From positions 1-64,000 of the forward strand of contig CAKMKJ010000046.1 in the NCBI GenBank assembly GCA_927443345.1: 64,000 nucleotides of DNA. Direction: 5' to 3'. Origin of the DNA: an uncultured Anaerolineaceae bacterium. GTDB taxonomy: Bacteria; Chloroflexota; Anaerolineae; Anaerolineales; Anaerolineaceae. How positions within the stretch are numbered: the first letter of the stretch is position 1; every line of letters starts with the position of its first letter. The translations under genes and the position numbers were made by a program. The notes below the pieces were generated by a model, which searched no databases, was not told where the DNA came from, and saw only the letters and a program-made list of their open reading frames with translations. Shown piece after piece: positions 33,137 to 39,904 of this stretch.

Positions 33137-33769
33137 TTACAGCGGAAACTCTTTTTTCAGCCCTGTGATGTTGCCCTTGCGCACAAAATCCATCTCTGTG
33201 GTGCTGCGTTCTTCTTTGATGGTGACAATCACATCAGAGTTTTGCCAGCGGCTTTGTTTCACCGCCACTGCCCCGTTAATCTCTTCAAACACCACCTGGC
33301 AGATGCGTTCGCCCGGGTACATGCGAATCACTTGAGATTGGGTATTGTTACGCACCGGAATCAGCAAATTACCCTCATAGCCGGCATCCACCACACCGGT
33401 GAGGTCGATTGAAAGGCCTCTGCGGTTGACCGACGAGCGCGGATACAAAATAGCCATCAGATCGTCAGGCAGTTTTATCTTTTCAAGCGTGGTCACCGCC
33501 ACATATTCCCCAGGCAAAATATCAAAGACCTGACCTTCTTCCAACTCAACCAGCGTGTGACGCATGGTTTTGTGATCCACATCCAGATGGTCGGTACGCA
33601 CAGCAACACGGCCTTCGTTGGTGAGGTCCCAGGCTTTGGGCAGCAAAAAAGAGAAGCCCAGACGCAAATCCACAGAATGCTGCTGAATCTGGAATTGATC
33701 AATCTGCGGTGAGAAGACCAGTTCTTTATTATCAATTCTTTCCATAATTTGCTGGCTGGTTAAGATCAT
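33137..33769 (-). CDS. dCTP deaminase/dUTPase-fold protein
   Basis: A 210-residue trimeric-fold protein of the DCD/DUT superfamily. It has QIQQHSVDLRLGFSF, LYPRSSVNRRGLSIDLTG, VVDAGYEGNLLIPVRN (D128) and YPGERICQVVFEEI, the usual motif order. In E. coli dCTP deaminase the catalytic Glu138 falls where this protein has Pro138, while D128 matches the dUTPase water-activating Asp. It may therefore be a dUTPase, or hydrolyse or bind another pyrimidine triphosphate. Start 33769 has GGAGA upstream and overlaps the previous stop (ATGA). It is the last gene of the six-gene deoxypyrimidine operon and converges with glnE 5 bases away. Confidence 0.8.
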   Translation of the reverse strand: MILTSQQIMERIDNKELVFSPQIDQFQIQQHSVDLRLGFSFLLPKAWDLTNEGRVAVRTDHLDVDHKTMRHTLVELEEGQVFDILPGEYVAVTTLEKIKLPDDLMAILYPRSSVNRRGLSIDLTGVVDAGYEGNLLIPVRNNTQSQVIRMYPGERICQVVFEEINGAVAVKQSRWQNSDVIVTIKEERSTTEMDFVRKGNITGLKKEFPL

Positions 33770-34794
33770 TGATCGTCTCCCAATTGAGAATAAATTCTTT
33801 GTGCATTTTGCAGATACTTTTCTTTTTGCAGTAGCTTGGCTGGCAAGCCAATACCCGCCTGATAGCCGTCTGTCACATCCATCAGCCATTGTTCAATACG
33901 ATCCACCGCAGGCGCTTCTTCTGAAGGCAGGTAAACATGGAAGTCGCCCGCAGTAACGGTAATCGTTCCAATTGGTCGGTTAACACTGGCAGCAGCTTCA
34001 GCCAGCCAGGTGTAATCATGCATGAAATCCAGCAGAACACCCTGCCCGGCATCCAGCGAGCGGTGCACATGGAAGGAATGCAGGGGTTCGTGCGCTTCGC
34101 CCGGCAGCAATTGAAAGAACTGATAAGGTGGAATGCCCAAAAGAGGCTTCATGCGCTGATCCAGTTCAGGGTAAACAAATGAGACGGTTACCGCCCTGCG
34201 CGAAGCCGGGTTGTCACTAATCTCATTGATGATGCGCTTCAACTGATCCACGCGCGACCTGGCCAAAAAAGAGTCTACCTGAAAAGGATTCTCAAGGAAG
34301 GCAGACATTTGCTGGCATCCCAGCCAATCCCACACGGCCAGAATCACTTGCAAATGAACCATTTCACTAGCAGCAGCAAGATAGTCAAAAAAAGCATCTT
34401 GATTTCTGGTAATGGTTTGGCAATCACCGCCCAATTTTTGCGTGGCACGCAGCACCGCCTGGATGTATCCCCAGCCACCGTCCCAAAAACGTGAGCGCGC
34501 CGCATAGGTGTAAGGGAAAAGGTAATCGCCTTTTTCAGCCAACCGCTCTGGTCGGTTTTCAGGTCTGCCATCCACGAAAATCTGCTGATAGAAATCCGCA
34601 GACTCACGTGACCATCCCCAATAATTTTCATCCGAATTCGAGGGGTTTTCCCAGAGGAGGGTAAGCGCTTTAACCGAAAAGGTGCTGCCGCGCGAAGATT
34701 CACGCTTCACGCCATGGCCGATCACATAATCGTGAGCTTTAGCCAGTAGCTCTTTAAGCGTGGCACCTCTCAAAACCGACACTTGATCAGTCAT
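33766..34794 (-). CDS. Divergent thymidylate-synthase-fold protein lacking the catalytic Cys
   Basis: A 342-residue protein alignable with ThyA. It retains ASRRAVTVSF (phosphate-binding SRR, 198-200), PPYQFFQLL near 222-230, HRSLD (245-248), and GDFHVY (283-288) for the ribose hydroxyl. At the position of the catalytic Cys (PPCH in ThyA) it has Tyr224, and D256 aligns with the Asn that selects dUMP. Without the nucleophilic Cys it should not methylate by the ThyA route. It may be a regulatory or structural partner of the ThyA-like gene just upstream, or use another chemistry. It has an extra N-terminal region of about 80 residues. The stop overlaps the next start. Confidence 0.72.
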   Translation of the reverse strand: MTDQVSVLRGATLKELLAKAHDYVIGHGVKRESSRGSTFSVKALTLLWENPSNSDENYWGWSRESADFYQQIFVDGRPENRPERLAEKGDYLFPYTYAARSRFWDGGWGYIQAVLRATQKLGGDCQTITRNQDAFFDYLAAASEMVHLQVILAVWDWLGCQQMSAFLENPFQVDSFLARSRVDQLKRIINEISDNPASRRAVTVSFVYPELDQRMKPLLGIPPYQFFQLLPGEAHEPLHSFHVHRSLDAGQGVLLDFMHDYTWLAEAAASVNRPIGTITVTAGDFHVYLPSEEAPAVDRIEQWLMDVTDGYQAGIGLPAKLLQKEKYLQNAQRIYSQLGDDQ

Positions 34795-34823
34795 CTATTT
34801 ACCCTTCACCAATAAAAAAAAAC

Positions 34824-35654
34824 TTACAAAACTACCGGCAGCCCTTTGATGGGAGGCGCAGGGGTATATTGTGCATCCAAAATCTGCACGATTTCATCCA
34901 CCAGGGTGACGTCACCTTTTTCGGCACGGTCAAACCAGTCTGGTTTGGCATTGAGTTCTATTTCTTTCTCCTGCCCGCTGCGGCTGATAATCTCAAGCGC
35001 CGCATCGTAATGCACATCATAGATATGCGCATTAGATATGGAATGGGAGTAAACACCCACACCAACACCCAACCTTGCTGCCAACATGCGCTGCAACAAA
35101 GCAAAACCAGCCACGTCAAACGGACAGCCCACCACCATGTCGTTTGAGCGGAAAATGGTGTGGAAGTGGAGCTTTTCACCAATGATATTAACCGTAAACG
35201 AAAGCGGGCATGGCACGTTTTTCTTTTTAAGCTCAGGGTTCAGGCCATCACCAGCCGGATCCCAGGTAATGACCACACCATGTCGTGAGCTGCGTTCTTT
35301 TTCAAGCAATTTCACCAGCAAGCCAATTTGGTCACGGCCAAAGAACTGGCGCCAGCGAAAGCCGTAGGCCGAATTCACCACGCCGTTGAGGTTGGTAAAA
35401 TCATTCCATATCTTAGTGTATTGATCAATAAATTCCACCGGTTTACGGCTGCCCATCATAAACCAGACCTGTTCGGCGGCAAACACACGCGGCGCGATCT
35501 TGCGCAGCGATAAAAGCGGAAAGCCAGCATCCAGGTTAAAGTGCAACCCGGGAAGTGCTTTCACTTTATGCCCGGTGCGTTCGTTGACCTCTTCAATGCC
35601 TTGGTCAAGAATCTGTTTCAAGCAATCACTGTAAGTGCGGTCAAACTGGGTCAA
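34824..35654 (-). CDS. Thymidylate-synthase family protein with dCMP-type Asp
   Basis: A 276-residue ThyA-family protein that should use folate to methylate or hydroxymethylate a pyrimidine nucleotide. It keeps SAYGFRWRQFFGRDQI, the catalytic Cys149 in NVPCPLSF, RSND (169-172) and NAHIYDVHYD. The segment normally PFN is PFD, giving Asp180. In phage dCMP hydroxymethylases the same Asn is Asp, and in ThyA this swap shifts preference from dUMP to dCMP. PCH is PCP and QRS is FRS, other departures. TTG 35654 is chosen: AAGGAG is 8 bases upstream and the codon overlaps the N-glycosidase stop (TTGA); a GTG at 35663 is possible. Product: dCMP-modifying enzyme, or a variant dTMP synthase. Confidence 0.78.
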   Translation of the reverse strand: MTQFDRTYSDCLKQILDQGIEEVNERTGHKVKALPGLHFNLDAGFPLLSLRKIAPRVFAAEQVWFMMGSRKPVEFIDQYTKIWNDFTNLNGVVNSAYGFRWRQFFGRDQIGLLVKLLEKERSSRHGVVITWDPAGDGLNPELKKKNVPCPLSFTVNIIGEKLHFHTIFRSNDMVVGCPFDVAGFALLQRMLAARLGVGVGVYSHSISNAHIYDVHYDAALEIISRSGQEKEIELNAKPDWFDRAEKGDVTLVDEIVQILDAQYTPAPPIKGLPVVL

Positions 35655-36079
35655 GCCTTCCACTCCTTCAGCCAGTGAGAAAGCTGTTGAAGTGCGTCGT
35701 CTTGATCAGTGAAATGAATTTCAGCCACCACGGCGGGGTTTCCGCGTACCATGCGCGAAATTCTGCGGTCTTTCTCCATCAACATCACCACCGGGATGTT
35801 GTTTTCGCGGGCAATTTCAATCTCCTGGCCAACGCCAAGAGAGGGATATCCCACGTAAGCCACCAACAGGTTAGAATCCAGTACCTGGCGGCGATCGAGA
35901 TCATAAACTTCTTCCGGCGTCATAGTTGGGTTGCCAATCGGATCGGAAACAAGATGAGGTACATAGGCTTCAATTCCGGCTCCTTTGCATGTTTCAGCAA
36001 TGCGCTCATAAAAATGCTTCAACAATTCAATTTCATCTCCACCGGTGAGCGCTCCAGATACGTAAGCCGTAATTTTCAT
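35651..36079 (-). CDS. Nucleoside 2-deoxyribosyltransferase/N-hydrolase family
   Basis: A 142-residue protein of the fold shared by nucleoside deoxyribosyltransferases, DNPH1 (which cleaves 5-hydroxymethyl-dUMP) and MilB (which cleaves hydroxymethyl-CMP). It has ITAYVSGALTGG at the start, DLDRRQVLDSNLLVAYVG and PSLGVGQEIEIARENNIPVV, where E86 aligns with the catalytic Glu. It overlaps the dUTPase upstream (ATGA) and the ThyA-like gene downstream (TTGA), so it is produced with both. Likely role: removing the base from a modified or unwanted deoxynucleotide. Whether it transfers or hydrolyses is unresolved. Confidence 0.78.
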   Translation of the reverse strand: MKITAYVSGALTGGDEIELLKHFYERIAETCKGAGIEAYVPHLVSDPIGNPTMTPEEVYDLDRRQVLDSNLLVAYVGYPSLGVGQEIEIARENNIPVVMLMEKDRRISRMVRGNPAVVAEIHFTDQDDALQQLSHWLKEWKA

Positions 36080-36612
36080 GCTGCATCCTTTTGTTTGGGT
36101 AGAGTCAAATTTTCATTTTGAAAAAAACCGTCATAGGCATGCGTGCCGCCTTCAATTTCAAAGAAAACCAGTTGCAGCAGTCTGGCATTTTGCGCCAGCC
36201 GTAAACCGCCCGGGTTGTAGACAATCAATAAACTTTGGCTGCGTCCGTTATAACCTGCATCCCAAACTGCCGTTCCCACCGAGACGGCCATGCGCAGCAA
36301 ACTTGAGCGCGGACGCCCCAAAGCCATCACTTCCACCGGCAGATGCACAATTTCATTAAAGGTCGCCAGATACTGCCCCTGGGGAAGGTCGACCCAACCA
36401 TCTTCAAAATCAATGGCGGTTAATGGCGGCAAAACACGTTCAGCGCTCGAAAATCCAAGCTGGCCGCCAGATTGAAAAGCCTGAACAGAATACAGGCTGA
36501 GATCCACACCATTGGGCTGGATCTGTTGGTCTGCATCCAGCAAGCCTTCAATTAAAGGAGGATTATTCTTTTGCAGTTCTCTGATCTTTGCCGCCGACAA
36601 AACTGAACCCAT
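36076..36612 (-). CDS. dut: dUTPase, archaeal DUT/DCD type
   Basis: A 178-residue protein. It begins like archaeal dUTPases (PPLIEGLLDADQQIQPNGVDLSL) and has GRPRSSLLRMAVSVGTAVWDAGYNGRSQSLL, where D118 is the expected water-activating Asp. The Glu of dCTP deaminases is absent, so dUTP diphosphatase (dUTP to dUMP) is preferred over deamination. It follows the SDR gene by 19 bases, with GGAG eight bases before ATG. It is the second DCD/DUT-fold gene in the operon, and only distantly related to the one at 33.1 kb. Confidence 0.82.
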   Translation of the reverse strand: MGSVLSAAKIRELQKNNPPLIEGLLDADQQIQPNGVDLSLYSVQAFQSGGQLGFSSAERVLPPLTAIDFEDGWVDLPQGQYLATFNEIVHLPVEVMALGRPRSSLLRMAVSVGTAVWDAGYNGRSQSLLIVYNPGGLRLAQNARLLQLVFFEIEGGTHAYDGFFQNENLTLPKQKDAA

Positions 36613-36631
36613 GAATGATCTCCGTTACAGA

Positions 36632-37366
36632 TTATTTGATCGTGCGTCCGCCATCCACCACCAAAACCTGACCAGTGATGAACTCTTCCTTCATTAAATA
36701 GCTAACCGCCCTTGCAACATCGTCGGGCGACCCCAGACGTTTGAGTGGCGTGTTCTTTTCAAGGCGCTTCCATCTTTCTTCATCCCCGCCTTCGGGCATC
36801 AAGACTGGCCCCGGCAGCACCGCGTTCACACGGATGCGTGGTGCAAGCTCCAGCGCGGTAGAAAGCGTGAGCATACGCAGCGCTGCCTTTGAGGCGCTGT
36901 GATGAATATAATACCGGGTGGGCACCTGTGCGCTTTCATCCAGAATGTTGACGATTGAACCGCCATCCCCAGCTTGCATCAACTTGCTGGCTGCCTGGGT
37001 AAAGAAAAAAGGCGCCTTGGCGTTGGTATCCATCGTTTGAGCCCAGGTTTCTGGTGTGATTTCGAGAAAAGGGATTTCCTGCATAATGGCCGCATTGTTG
37101 ACCAATCCATCAAGACGACCAAACAAAGTATGGCAATCGGCAACGGTTTTCTCTATTTGTAAAATGTCAGTTTGGTCACAGTAGAATGCAACGGCTTGAA
37201 CACCGAGTGCTTTGGTCTCTTCCACGGTTTGAAGCGCGTCTTTTTGGGAGCTGCGGTAAGTGATGGCGATGGATGCACCTTCACGCGCCAGCGCCAATGC
37301 GATGGATTTTCCCACCCGGTGCGCCCCACCTGTTACAAGAAACACTTTTCCCGAAAAAGAAGTCAA
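36632..37366 (-). CDS. Short-chain dehydrogenase, pteridine-reductase-like
   Basis: A 244-residue SDR. The cofactor loop is TGGAHRVGKSIALALA, with Arg in the third position as in pteridine/dihydrofolate reductases (PTR1, FolM) rather than TGxxxGIG; the other landmarks are NNAAIM and a C-terminal VDGGRTIK. In the usual Ser-Tyr-Lys set the Tyr position is His156 (HSASK, K160). A folate-reducing role fits the ThyA-family genes downstream, which would need dihydrofolate recycled. TTG 37366 is chosen because AGGAG is 7 bases upstream; the frame extends to another TTG at 37393. It is the first gene of the six-gene deoxypyrimidine operon, 145 bases after nrdJ. Confidence 0.75.
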   Translation of the reverse strand: MTSFSGKVFLVTGGAHRVGKSIALALAREGASIAITYRSSQKDALQTVEETKALGVQAVAFYCDQTDILQIEKTVADCHTLFGRLDGLVNNAAIMQEIPFLEITPETWAQTMDTNAKAPFFFTQAASKLMQAGDGGSIVNILDESAQVPTRYYIHHSASKAALRMLTLSTALELAPRIRVNAVLPGPVLMPEGGDEERWKRLEKNTPLKRLGSPDDVARAVSYLMKEEFITGQVLVVDGGRTIK

Positions 37367-37511
37367 CCGTTTGCTCCTGATCAATTTGTGCAAAATTTAT
37401 GAAATAAGATCAAACAGATTGGCAAGAATTTCAGCCAACCTGCTTGATATCCGCGTAAAAGGTCAAGGTTGAGCATTCATCCAGGGGAGTGTTACTTCGC
37501 CCTGAAAGAAG

Positions 37512-39812
37512 CTAAAACTCAATCGAGCATGTCCCGGCCAGACAGGCCAATTCCTGGGCTGCGGTGGTGAGGTCTTTTTCTTCGTAATAATACAGCTTCG
37601 AGAAGTCAATATTTGGGAATTTTGCAACCAGTTTGTTGTATTCAACTTCTTCAATCTGTTCGTATGGCATCTGGTTGAAGAGGGAATCGTAGGAGGGCAA
37701 GAAAGTCATGCCGCCGATCACATCCTGATGTTCCCAAACCCACTTAATGATGTCAATGATCTCATCCGGTTTGTAGGTAATGGTGACACTGGGATTATGC
37801 TCCGTCCAGCGCAGTTTGTTTTGCAGCCAGTAGTCGCATTGCATCAAAGCTGGGCGCGCTTCACGGGTGATTGCACCTTCAGGTGCCTTGACCGGGAAGT
37901 GAATGACCCAGGTGGTGGCGTTTTCGATGGTTTGACCATTTTCAGGTCCCATGGGAACACCGGCATCGCGCAGGACTTTGAATATGGGCGAGTGTGTGCC
38001 AACGCGTACGTTTCGAACATAGTAAGGCGACCAGCGAGGATGTATGCCGGGGGAACAATCTAAAAGTTGTGAGCTGTTGCCGGAGGGTTTCACTGTGGTG
38101 ACTGCTGCAGAATGCTTGATTCCAAGCATGTCAGCATATTTTTCATTCGTTTCAATTGCCACTTTGCGTAATTTTTCTTGCACTTCGGGGTCTTGAGCTA
38201 CCGGGGAATCCAGTTGCCCGTTGATATCCACACCCAATAAACGTTCGTCTTCACAATTTTGTTTCCAGATATCGCGCATACCGGGGAAGTTGGTGGCCAT
38301 GGCCTGGATGGTGCCAATAATTGTGGCCAACTCCACTTTTTCTCGTAGAGTCTCATAAGTGTCTTCATTGCGGGCGACTGCGATACTCAAATTGCAGAAT
38401 TGGTAAGGCCGAAGCACAATCTCGCCGCAGGGGTTGGTACCAAAATCTACCTTCTTGCGCCTTTCGGGGACGGTGTTGTGTGCTGCACGGCGGTTGAAAA
38501 TACCGGGTTCACCACGACCAGACATGTGCATGTCGGCAATGATGTTGAAAATTTCCAGTTGGGTCAATTTGCGATCAGGCCAGACCAATGAATTGTTGGC
38601 GTTCCAGCGCTGGCTGTTTTCACGTTCAAAATCACCGCTCTTGCATTTGCGCATTTCGATATCATCGTAATCAAAAAGGCTGATCATGGCGGTTCGGCGC
38701 ACTCCGCCAGAAACGGCTGCGTTGCCAACCTCGCACATGATGTCATGCGCGTCGATGGGACGGATAAAGCCGCCCTGTTGAGCCAAAACACGGCTGCGTA
38801 CAAACTCTAACATTTTTCGCAGCGGTTCTGGACCAGAGGCACGTCCGCCTTTTATGCGCAGGGGGGCACCGGCAGGTCTGATCTCGGAGAAATCAAATTT
38901 TATATCATGACCGTCAAACCAGGTCTGCAACCCTTGACGCAAAGCGTCAGCCCAACCTTCTGCTGAATCCTCGATAAGCTTGGTGGGTACATCACCTGGG
39001 ATCTGACGGTGAACGCGCGGGAAGTTTTCAACATATTGTTTTTCAACCGAATAACCCACACCGCAGCCACTCATTGAAATGATCAAAGCTTCGACAAATG
39101 AATCAATGCTGTCTACGGGCATGTAAGAACAGTTATAGATAGCGATGTTGTTCCGACGTGCTGCCGGGCCAGCCATGGCCAAAAGCCGCATCGAAGGCAT
39201 GGCGCGCATCTCAAGAATACCCTTGCGAACCCGGTCATAAGTTTCTGCGGGCAGCTTGTTTTCTGATAATTCTTTGAGATAATCGGTCGCCCGATCCACG
39301 GTTTCAACCCAGGTTTCACGATGCCCCAATTCATAATTAAAACGGGAATACTTGTCATAAAACTGGAATTTCTGAAGCTGTGTCGGGAAGTATGAATCTG
39401 ATTCTTCAAACGCCTGGCGAATTTCAAGAGGCACGGGCCGGGACTGGCGCAGCTTGGCATGTTCAGCACGATATAAGATATAGTGCTTGGCAGCCGAGAA
39501 TTCCCCCAGCGATTGCAGCGTCATCTCGACAATATCTTGAATAGCTTCCACCGAGGGTCGGTCAAACTTGCTGGCTACAACATTCACTGCGCGTTGGGCA
39601 ATGGTCTCAATGGGAATAATAGGTTTCTTACCGATACTCTCAAAACATTTCCTTAAAGCAATTTCAATTCTTTCAATGTTAAACGGAACAATACTTCCAT
39701 CACGCTTAACCACCGTACTGGGAACAACGATGACTTCCTGACCAAAGGGTTCACCATTGTGTGAGATGTTTTCATTAATGCCATTAACAGAATGCTTTTC
39801 TACCTTGTTCAT
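37512..39812 (-). CDS. nrdJ: Adenosylcobalamin-dependent ribonucleoside-triphosphate reductase
   Basis: A 766-residue class II ribonucleotide reductase, which makes deoxynucleotides with B12 and needs no oxygen. An ATP-cone (about residues 30-120: VVKRDGSIVPFNIERIEIALRK split here as VVKRDGSIVPFNIERI) precedes the ten-stranded barrel. YNCSYMPVDSIDSFVEAL holds the first redox Cys, FGTNPCGEIVLRPYQFCNLS the thiyl Cys462, and the tail CLAGTCSIEF has the shuttle pair C757 and C762. ATG 39812 follows AGAGGAGA; the frame extends upstream without a site. Two putative NrdR boxes lie 54-93 bases upstream. It probably heads a regulon with the six downstream deoxypyrimidine genes. Confidence 0.93.
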   Translation of the reverse strand: MNKVEKHSVNGINENISHNGEPFGQEVIVVPSTVVKRDGSIVPFNIERIEIALRKCFESIGKKPIIPIETIAQRAVNVVASKFDRPSVEAIQDIVEMTLQSLGEFSAAKHYILYRAEHAKLRQSRPVPLEIRQAFEESDSYFPTQLQKFQFYDKYSRFNYELGHRETWVETVDRATDYLKELSENKLPAETYDRVRKGILEMRAMPSMRLLAMAGPAARRNNIAIYNCSYMPVDSIDSFVEALIISMSGCGVGYSVEKQYVENFPRVHRQIPGDVPTKLIEDSAEGWADALRQGLQTWFDGHDIKFDFSEIRPAGAPLRIKGGRASGPEPLRKMLEFVRSRVLAQQGGFIRPIDAHDIMCEVGNAAVSGGVRRTAMISLFDYDDIEMRKCKSGDFERENSQRWNANNSLVWPDRKLTQLEIFNIIADMHMSGRGEPGIFNRRAAHNTVPERRKKVDFGTNPCGEIVLRPYQFCNLSIAVARNEDTYETLREKVELATIIGTIQAMATNFPGMRDIWKQNCEDERLLGVDINGQLDSPVAQDPEVQEKLRKVAIETNEKYADMLGIKHSAAVTTVKPSGNSSQLLDCSPGIHPRWSPYYVRNVRVGTHSPIFKVLRDAGVPMGPENGQTIENATTWVIHFPVKAPEGAITREARPALMQCDYWLQNKLRWTEHNPSVTITYKPDEIIDIIKWVWEHQDVIGGMTFLPSYDSLFNQMPYEQIEEVEYNKLVAKFPNIDFSKLYYYEEKDLTTAAQELACLAGTCSIEF

Positions 39813-39861
39813 CACCGATCTCCTCTTGCTACGATAAATTTCCTTTTTCAAAAGAACACCC

Positions 39862-39904
39862 CCCATATGTGGGGGTAGATATGGGTCCCCCTCCTATATC
39901 TAGG
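39862..39904. promoter_or_regulatory. Pair of NrdR-box-like palindromes
   Basis: CCCATATGTGGG (39862-39873) and CCTATATCTAGG (39893-39904) are near-palindromes whose centres are 31 bases apart, three helical turns, the spacing typical of paired NrdR sites. On the minus strand the second reads CTAGATATAG, 9 of 10 to the core CwAtATaTwG; the first matches 7 of 10. They lie just upstream of nrdJ. Between 39905 and 40359 I see no gene, only AT-rich DNA with a doubtful 62-codon frame. Confidence 0.72.

Follow-up and report, generated by a model that had tools for sequence, protein, structure and literature searches.

By the textbook account, cells make thymidylate solely by methylation of deoxyuridine monophosphate (dUMP), through either ThyA or ThyX. 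A gene cluster within a 64,000-nucleotide stretch of DNA from an uncultured Anaerolineaceae bacterium (assembly GCA_927443345.1, contig CAKMKJ010000046.1; hereafter the window) raises the question whether a cell may instead reach thymidylate (dTMP) from deoxycytidine monophosphate (dCMP). Read 5′ to 3′ on the minus strand, this operon comprises genes for a ribonucleotide reductase (nrdJ), a short-chain dehydrogenase/reductase (SDR), a dUTPase (DUT), a candidate nucleotide N-glycosidase (NDT), two ThyA-fold proteins (TSA and TSB) and a further protein of the dCTP deaminase/dUTPase fold (DCD1). From the gene content and order, conservation, residue states, phylogeny and co-occurrence that we observed, we infer the enzyme activities of what may be the cell's own operon for de novo thymidylate synthesis by dCMP methylation, used in place of ThyX; we give this reading an even chance of being right.

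The substrate question rests first on TSA, which we compared between the eight genomes found to carry it, namely that of the window (G000), those of four named relatives (G400–G403) and the genomes G041, G228 and G196 (hereafter TSA genomes). In all eight orthologues, TSA keeps the residues of the ThyA catalytic core, i.e. Glu58, Tyr94, Arg126, Cys146, Arg166, Ser167, Asp169, His207 and Tyr209 (E. coli numbering), but not Arg127, which is replaced by His or Gln. The pair His147/Asn177 is present in 12/12 canonical rows of our alignment (6 Chloroflexota ThyA and 6 phage enzymes), whereas TSA has Pro147 and Asp177 in 8/8 orthologues, a pair that recurs in 8/8 of the phage relatives chosen. Hence, TSA resembles canonical ThyA in its fold and catalytic residues and is unlike it at positions 127, 147 and 177 as well as in having a constant partner that lacks the catalytic Cys. 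The double exchange of Asn for Asp noted in the original prediction is borne out, as Asp177 is found in all eight orthologues of both TSA and TSB. PMC8670742 identified 177 and 147 as the two positions by which ThyA-family enzymes from phage contigs with modified cytosine are best told apart from all others; it gives Asp for 177, and the passages cited here do not state the letter at 147. The same paper cites three studies in which an Asn-to-Asp exchange at 177 switches ThyA to dCMP, and Asp is the cytosine determinant in the T4 dCMP hydroxymethylase (gp42) and the CMP hydroxymethylase MilA (PMC6400193, PMC5175136). TSA shares Asp177 with both enzymes (for MilA according to PMC5175136), but differs from gp42 at position 147, which is Thr there.

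In a tree of 37 rows, TSA formed one clade (100/99) that is sister to the eight phage Pro147/Asp177 enzymes (96/90) and not nested inside them. The rows consisted of 6/8 TSA and 4/8 TSB sequences (near-copies omitted), 6/14 high-scoring canonical ThyA, 6/12 other Chloroflexota ThyA-like loci (L020–L031), T4 gp42, whose branch is very long, and 14 phage sequences (8 Pro/Asp, 6 His/Asn) picked from the best matches and from 40 records sampled evenly across 3676. Next to the phage clade enzymes, the following gene is annotated as a dCMP deaminase in 7/8 records, the eighth carrying no functional names; a dihydrofolate reductase (DHFR) is annotated nearby in 5/8 and a pyrophosphohydrolase likewise in 5/8. 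Two clade members, DoCa10 and AXL1, belong to Bosavirus, the genus of phage Xp12 (PMC11946847), in whose DNA 5-methylcytosine replaces cytosine (PMC9206674). The deaminase of XP-12 converts 5-methyl-dCTP to dTTP independently of the host (PMC12088426, which cites Kuo 1982, 'A new thymidylate biosynthesis'). The operon thus resembles the route of Xp12, composed of a dCMP methyltransferase and a 5-methyl-dCTP deaminase, by which T nucleotides have been reported to arise from C nucleotides: the genus mates AXL1 and DoCa10 carry a Pro147/Asp177 ThyA-family enzyme beside a dCMP deaminase, and AXL1 a DHFR. Judging from these genus mates, and not from Xp12's own genome, the Xp12 methyltransferase would be a TSA-type gene. 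Unlike the phage system, the operon is cellular, lies in a genome in which neither ThyX nor a further ThyA-family member was matched and no zinc dCMP deaminase was recognised, and has TSB and DCD1 instead. Apart from TSA, loci L020–L022 encode another Chloroflexota ThyA-like family of about 320–390 aa with Asp177 and, in the two aligned (L020, L021), Thr147 as in T4 gp42; by these residues they are candidate dCMP hydroxymethylases. The ThyA-like proteins of L024 and L028–L031 measure about 487–505 aa and have a long extra N-terminal part.

We then asked which other thymidylate enzymes accompany TSA. Genome searches covered the organism's own genome, one drawn set of 400 genomes of the phylum, one class (47 genomes) and chosen sets of 21 or 18 genomes. 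The own genome, which is 98.8% complete, gave two matches to the ThyA family PF00303, TSA and TSB, and no others, and no match to ThyX (PF02511). PF02511 was undetected in 8/8 TSA genomes, whereas the same search detected it in 10/13 other chosen genomes; two of the remaining three possess a canonical ThyA with an adjoining DHFR, and the third is G176. A ThyX match was obtained in 334 of the 400 genomes drawn from the phylum and in 0/4 of those with TSA (Fisher p 7e-4, uncorrected for kinship). G176 cannot be counted as a genome without thymidylate synthase, as next to a DCD gene it harbors a divergent ThyX-like gene (L181:4642-5295) that scores 32.5 bits against PF02511, above the cut-off of 24.8. 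In relatives of the same family and order (L041–L048), the ThyX open frame spans about 480–510 aa with two tandem Thy1 matches. No zinc dCMP deaminase was recognised among the PF00383 proteins read in the TSA genomes (one G401 match was unread); the other PF00383 proteins in some of these genomes have the look of TadA, guanine deaminase or RibD, and a protein with the look of a dCMP deaminase occurs in 4/10 non-TSA genomes, these classes being assigned by motif.

The arrangement of the operon is conserved among relatives. Identical gene order is found in four named metagenome-assembled genome loci (WY2.bin104, HGW-Chloroflexi-4, UBA8523 and clean1174, all Chloroflexi/Anaerolineaceae; L032–L035), with nrdJ in the same place (truncated by the contig end in L035), a glnE-like gene beyond the operon and 84–97% identity between the operon genes. 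The ratio of nonsynonymous to synonymous substitution rates (dN/dS) is 0.016–0.103 in 27/27 gene comparisons, indicative of purifying selection, and TSB, at 0.044–0.103, is thus no gene in decay. Among the 400 phylum genomes, TSA and full-length TSB share the same four; TSA was counted there by the score class of its PF00303 match, weak matches lacking loci having been left unread. Since the order is kept in four loci, dN/dS is low and TSA and TSB co-occur, the operon is more than a chance assembly. A TSB profile matches 16/400 phylum genomes: the match is full length in the four TSA genomes, and in the other 12 it is partial and falls within a canonical ThyA gene. Of the 47 genomes in the class of G041, five match, the three TSA genomes over the full length and two partially, within canonical ThyA. 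Two scans of viral contigs for TSB relatives outside Chloroflexota yielded none, and matches in phages (123 records at E 0.01) and plasmids (2 records) were all partial, none covering 80% of TSB.

The part that recurs in other genera is the trio of TSA, TSB and DCD1. In G196, which belongs to another class, TSA, a DHFR-superfamily gene, TSB, DCD1 and a dTMP kinase gene form one same-strand run. The company of dTMP kinase and a folate-type reductase, likewise reminiscent of canonical ThyA, ties the core to thymidylate supply in this one genome.

The open reading frames of the window confirm all six genes and nrdJ on the minus strand (Table 1). The leftward series of overlapping genes downstream of nrdJ, described in the original prediction as an SDR, a dUTPase, an N-glycosidase, two ThyA-fold proteins and a second DCD/DUT-fold protein, agrees with these frames and with the family matches. 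DCD1 and TSB overlap by 4 bp, as do NDT and DUT; TSA and NDT overlap by 13 bp if TSA starts at the GTG at 35663, as adopted here, or by 4 bp if it starts at the TTG at 35654 used before. TSB and TSA are separated by 29 bp. The best NCBIfam match of nrdJ is a ribonucleoside-triphosphate reductase, below its cut-off, and the SDR likewise stays below the curated pteridine reductase score (227, cut-off 288).

Table 1. Genes of the operon, in their 5′ to 3′ order, with positions in the window.
Gene	Protein	Position	Strand	Family match
nrdJ	nrdJ-like adenosylcobalamin-dependent ribonucleotide reductase with ATP cone	37512..39866	-	TIGR02505, 257.5 bits (cut-off 340)
SDR	resembles pteridine reductase, with TGGAHRVG motif; may stand in for dihydrofolate reductase	36632..37393	-	best NCBIfam match NF006598
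DUT	dUTPase of the DCD/DUT fold, without the deaminase Glu	36076..36612	-	NF002598, 180 bits (cut-off 130)
NDT	candidate BlsM/DNPH1/MilB-like nucleoside 5′-monophosphate N-glycosidase	35651..36079	-	Nuc_deoxyrib_tr, 23.4 (cut-off 28.8)
TSA	ThyA-fold enzyme with catalytic Cys, Pro147/Asp177 (E. coli numbering)	34824..35663	-	PF00303, 159 bits
TSB	ThyA-fold protein, Tyr for the catalytic Cys, Asp177	33766..34794	-	PF00303, 41 bits (cut-off 24.3)
DCD1	dCTP-deaminase/dUTPase-fold protein, Pro for the catalytic Glu	33137..33769	-	TIGR02274, 117.9 (cut-off 92.8)

TSB, the constant partner of TSA, carries PPYQ where ThyA has PPCH, so that Tyr224 stands in for the catalytic Cys146 in 8/8 orthologues; in the MAFFT alignment, the column of TSB at this site is shifted by one. 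The phosphate- and sugar-binding residues are kept in all eight (R126, R127, R166, S167, D169, H207 and Y209), and an additional helical stretch precedes the DQL/SRR region. In the tree, TSB lies off the TSA clade on a long branch, which makes its placement unsure. A structural model, predicted from an alignment of 8 rows (mean predicted local distance difference test score (pLDDT) 75, predicted template-modelling score 0.72), adopts the ThyA fold, with a Foldseek E value of 5e-9 at TM 0.40 and VIA-align Z scores of 13–16. The top VIA-align matches are the phage flavin adenine dinucleotide-dependent dCMP hydroxylase AfhB, solved with dCMP (9iqu and 9iqc, Z 16), followed by MilA (Z 14–15), with thymidylate synthases at 13.6 or below. 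The likeness to AfhB, of which we found no description in the open-licence literature searched, is a match of folds to a predicted model of this mean pLDDT only. This ranking suits TSB as a binder of cytosine monophosphate, which is a statement about its fold rather than a demonstration of its function.

DCD1 has an invariant Pro (8/8) in place of the catalytic Glu of the deaminases (E138 in E. coli), which is present in the DCD of G176 and in all seven aligned DCDs of the E. coli type from non-TSA genomes. We thus rejected the assignment of DCD1 as an ordinary dCTP deaminase that its NCBIfam name implies; from its sequence, it is likely a deoxynucleoside triphosphate pyrophosphatase. The solved folds nearest to its model (mean pLDDT 69) are DCD and bifunctional DCD-DUT enzymes, including Glu mutants, from which it differs by the exchange of Glu for Pro. 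The fold of this second DCD/DUT-type protein had been predicted correctly, with the correction that the deaminase Glu is absent from both DCD1 and DUT. DUT itself matches the solved structure 9w59 at E 7.8e-50. Neighbouring pairs of DCD-like genes occur in G228 (L175:5723-7204) and G041 (L087, L106), in which one member keeps RSS without the Glu and the other the Glu without RSS; by sequence, these pairs look like split, heteromeric dCTP deaminases, and the complementary pair of G228 adjoins DCD1. NDT, present in the loci L032–L035 of the own genus, has its nearest solved relatives among N-glycosidases of the BlsM, DNPH1 and MilB types (E 3e-5 and weaker), and its PSLGVGQE aligns to PSLGVGYE of Rcl, including the Glu of the PSLGVGxE motif. 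Around the trio in G196, G228 and G041, NDT was not seen in the stretches read, whole genomes not having been searched for it. A DHFR of the PF00186 family was not found in G000, G400–G403, G041 and G228.

Read as a pathway, the operon could operate as follows. Ribonucleotide reductase would make deoxynucleotides, and DCD1, together with DUT, would hydrolyse pyrimidine deoxynucleoside triphosphates to monophosphates. TSA would then pass the one-carbon unit of methylenetetrahydrofolate on to C5 of dCMP; of the two products, 5-methyl-dCMP and dihydrofolate, the latter would be re-reduced by the SDR or, in G196, by the DHFR-superfamily protein. Hydroxymethylation of the T4 gp42 and MilA type leaves tetrahydrofolate, not dihydrofolate. 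Since a folate-type reductase adjoins TSA in G196 and a pteridine-reductase-like SDR belongs to the present operon, we favor methylation, which makes dihydrofolate, and set hydroxymethylation by TSA aside. If dCMP is methylated, deamination must follow, turning the 5-methyl-dC nucleotide into a T nucleotide. In Xp12, a zinc deaminase carries out this reaction. TSB, which may hold cytosine monophosphate without a catalytic Cys, would be the first candidate for this step because no zinc deaminase is conserved among the proteins read and TSB is the constant extra gene; the second would be DCD1 acting on 5-methyl-dCTP. In the version in which DCD1 converts dCTP to dCMP, TSA converts dCMP to 5-methyl-dCMP and TSB, as a ThyA-fold deaminase, converts the latter to dTMP, thymine would arise without dUMP. 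We regard this particular assignment of roles as doubtful.

Several observations weigh against a route through dCMP. No candidate for the deaminase is confirmed, as DCD1 has Pro for Glu and TSB shows no recognised catalytic group for deamination; moreover, we know of no ThyA-fold deaminase. The TSB model is weak at residues 203–224 (pLDDT <50), around the lost Cys, T4 dCMP hydroxymethylase matches it with a Z score of 12.8, below many thymidylate synthases, and Foldseek alone ranks the L. casei thymidylate synthase first. In 5/5 genus copies of the SDR, His (HxxxK, four residues before Lys) occupies the position where a catalytic Tyr is usual, and the lack of a PF00186 DHFR is not special to TSA genomes, since this family is also undetected in 8/10 non-TSA genomes. 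The thymidylate gene run is that of G196 only, whose reductase scores higher against RibD_C (64.6 bits) than against DHFR_1 (53.1 bits); in G228 and G041, the trio is split over separate contigs, where we recognised no neighbouring genes of thymidylate or folate metabolism. The absence of ThyX is a limited claim, as the search missed the divergent gene of G176. The PF00303 search among TSA genomes covered G000, G041, G228 and G196, not G400–G403, and G196 contains a third match of 218 aa with Asn177 but with His for Arg166. Finally, G228 and G196 are only 80% and 89% complete, respectively.

The main rival explanation keeps to dUMP: TSA, alone or as a TSA–TSB heterodimer, would methylate dUMP, DCD1 and DUT would be dUTPases and TSB a regulatory or structural subunit. 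Ribonucleotide reductase can give dUTP, and no step would call for an unknown deaminase. DUT scores above the dUTPase equivalog cut-off, and DCD1, as the sole DCD/dUTPase-fold match of G196, may simply be the dUTPase of that genome. G228 and G041 each have two further DCD-like genes, one per pair with the Glu, so dUMP could be made there. In addition, the pair gp62/gp63 of AXL1 was read by the authors of PMC9206674 as an ordinary route from dCMP via dUMP to dTMP, and they called the genetic basis of its cytosine modification unknown. Set against this are the invariance of Asp177 and Pro147 in TSA and its phage sisters and the switch to dCMP that Asp177 brings about in the three studies cited in PMC8670742 (cf. 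PMC6400193). The heterodimer drew on the Arg126–Arg127 pair, which serves the neighbouring subunit in thymidylate synthase dimers and is kept in TSB, whereas TSA has Arg-His or Arg-Gln. This argument is weak, because the phage relatives AMA2 and ehaak_LB5 also have Gln127, yet the phage and viral collections yielded no TSB, and we dropped the heterodimer as a strong inference from the missing Arg127. We consider the dUMP route a real, if minority, possibility, chiefly since it can do without an unknown enzyme and since DCD1 is the lone DCD/dUTPase-fold match of G196.

TSA might also make 5-methyl-dCMP while the step to thymine takes place outside the operon, for instance through dephosphorylation together with cytidine deaminase and thymidine kinase, or through deamination of 5-methyl-dCTP, the triphosphate level at which XP-12 acts (PMC12088426). 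Cytidine deaminase is present in 6/8 TSA genomes and thymidine kinase in 5/8, including 4/5 genus genomes (it is undetected in G403), so thymidine salvage is possible in the genus, a further point against a de novo operon. However, neither gene was detected in G041 and G228, and both are frequent among the non-TSA genomes covered by the search (10/10 for thymidine kinase) and thus not tied to TSA. We think this explanation unlikely, although its probability overlaps with that of dCMP-based synthesis. Quite unlikely, in our view, is a phage-derived set for DNA modification or clean-up, in which TSA makes 5-methyl- or 5-hydroxymethyl-dCMP, destined for DNA or some other product, NDT destroys unwanted nucleotides and thymidine comes from salvage or an undetected synthase. 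Its appeal lies in the sister position of TSA to phage enzymes, part of which come from phages whose cytosine is modified (PMC9206674), in the BlsM/DNPH1/MilB-like NDT, in the thymidine kinase of the genus, and in a viral contig that encodes a TSA of 54% identity. Near that viral gene are a dUTPase and a weak match to MazG, and neither TSB nor a deaminase was seen in the stretch read. The explanation sits poorly with the undetected ThyX in all TSA genomes, with the dTMP kinase at the end of the G196 run and with the missing thymidine kinase of G041 and G228. Of the two branches of the original prediction, a dTMP route through dCMP accordingly fits the sole PF00303 pair, the lack of a ThyX match, the G196 run and the phage kinship in Pro147/Asp177, whereas the making or cleaning up of 5-modified deoxypyrimidines is unsupported as the main job, because the trio recurs in other genera and NDT is unseen in the stretches around it. 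MilA/MilB-like antibiotic chemistry was rejected on the same behavior of NDT and since inspection of the 30–43 kb stretch by eye revealed no biosynthetic genes. The occurrence of the same operon in genomes without any other thymidylate synthase, named beforehand as evidence that would speak against the prediction, is largely what we found; it separates a DNA-modification from a housekeeping role and says nothing about the use of dUMP.

A route through 5-methyl-dC nucleotides is already known for phage Xp12 from the 1982 work cited above. Our searches of the open-licence literature brought up no report of this operon or of cells that make dTMP by way of dCMP; as far as that literature shows, what is new is a cellular operon seemingly built on the dCMP route, with no usual synthase detected, and TSB. 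If dCMP is indeed the substrate, a cell that relies on a cytosine-type ThyA would break the dUMP-only rule, and an enzyme kind known from phage base modification would serve as a housekeeping enzyme. Were TSB the deaminase, this would be a third cellular route to thymidylate besides ThyA acting on dUMP and ThyX, its methylating enzyme shared with phages. The question whether a cell can make the thymine of its DNA without dUMP would thereby become open to direct experiment on two or three purified proteins, and the label 'thymidylate synthase' on any ThyA-family gene can hide a different substrate.

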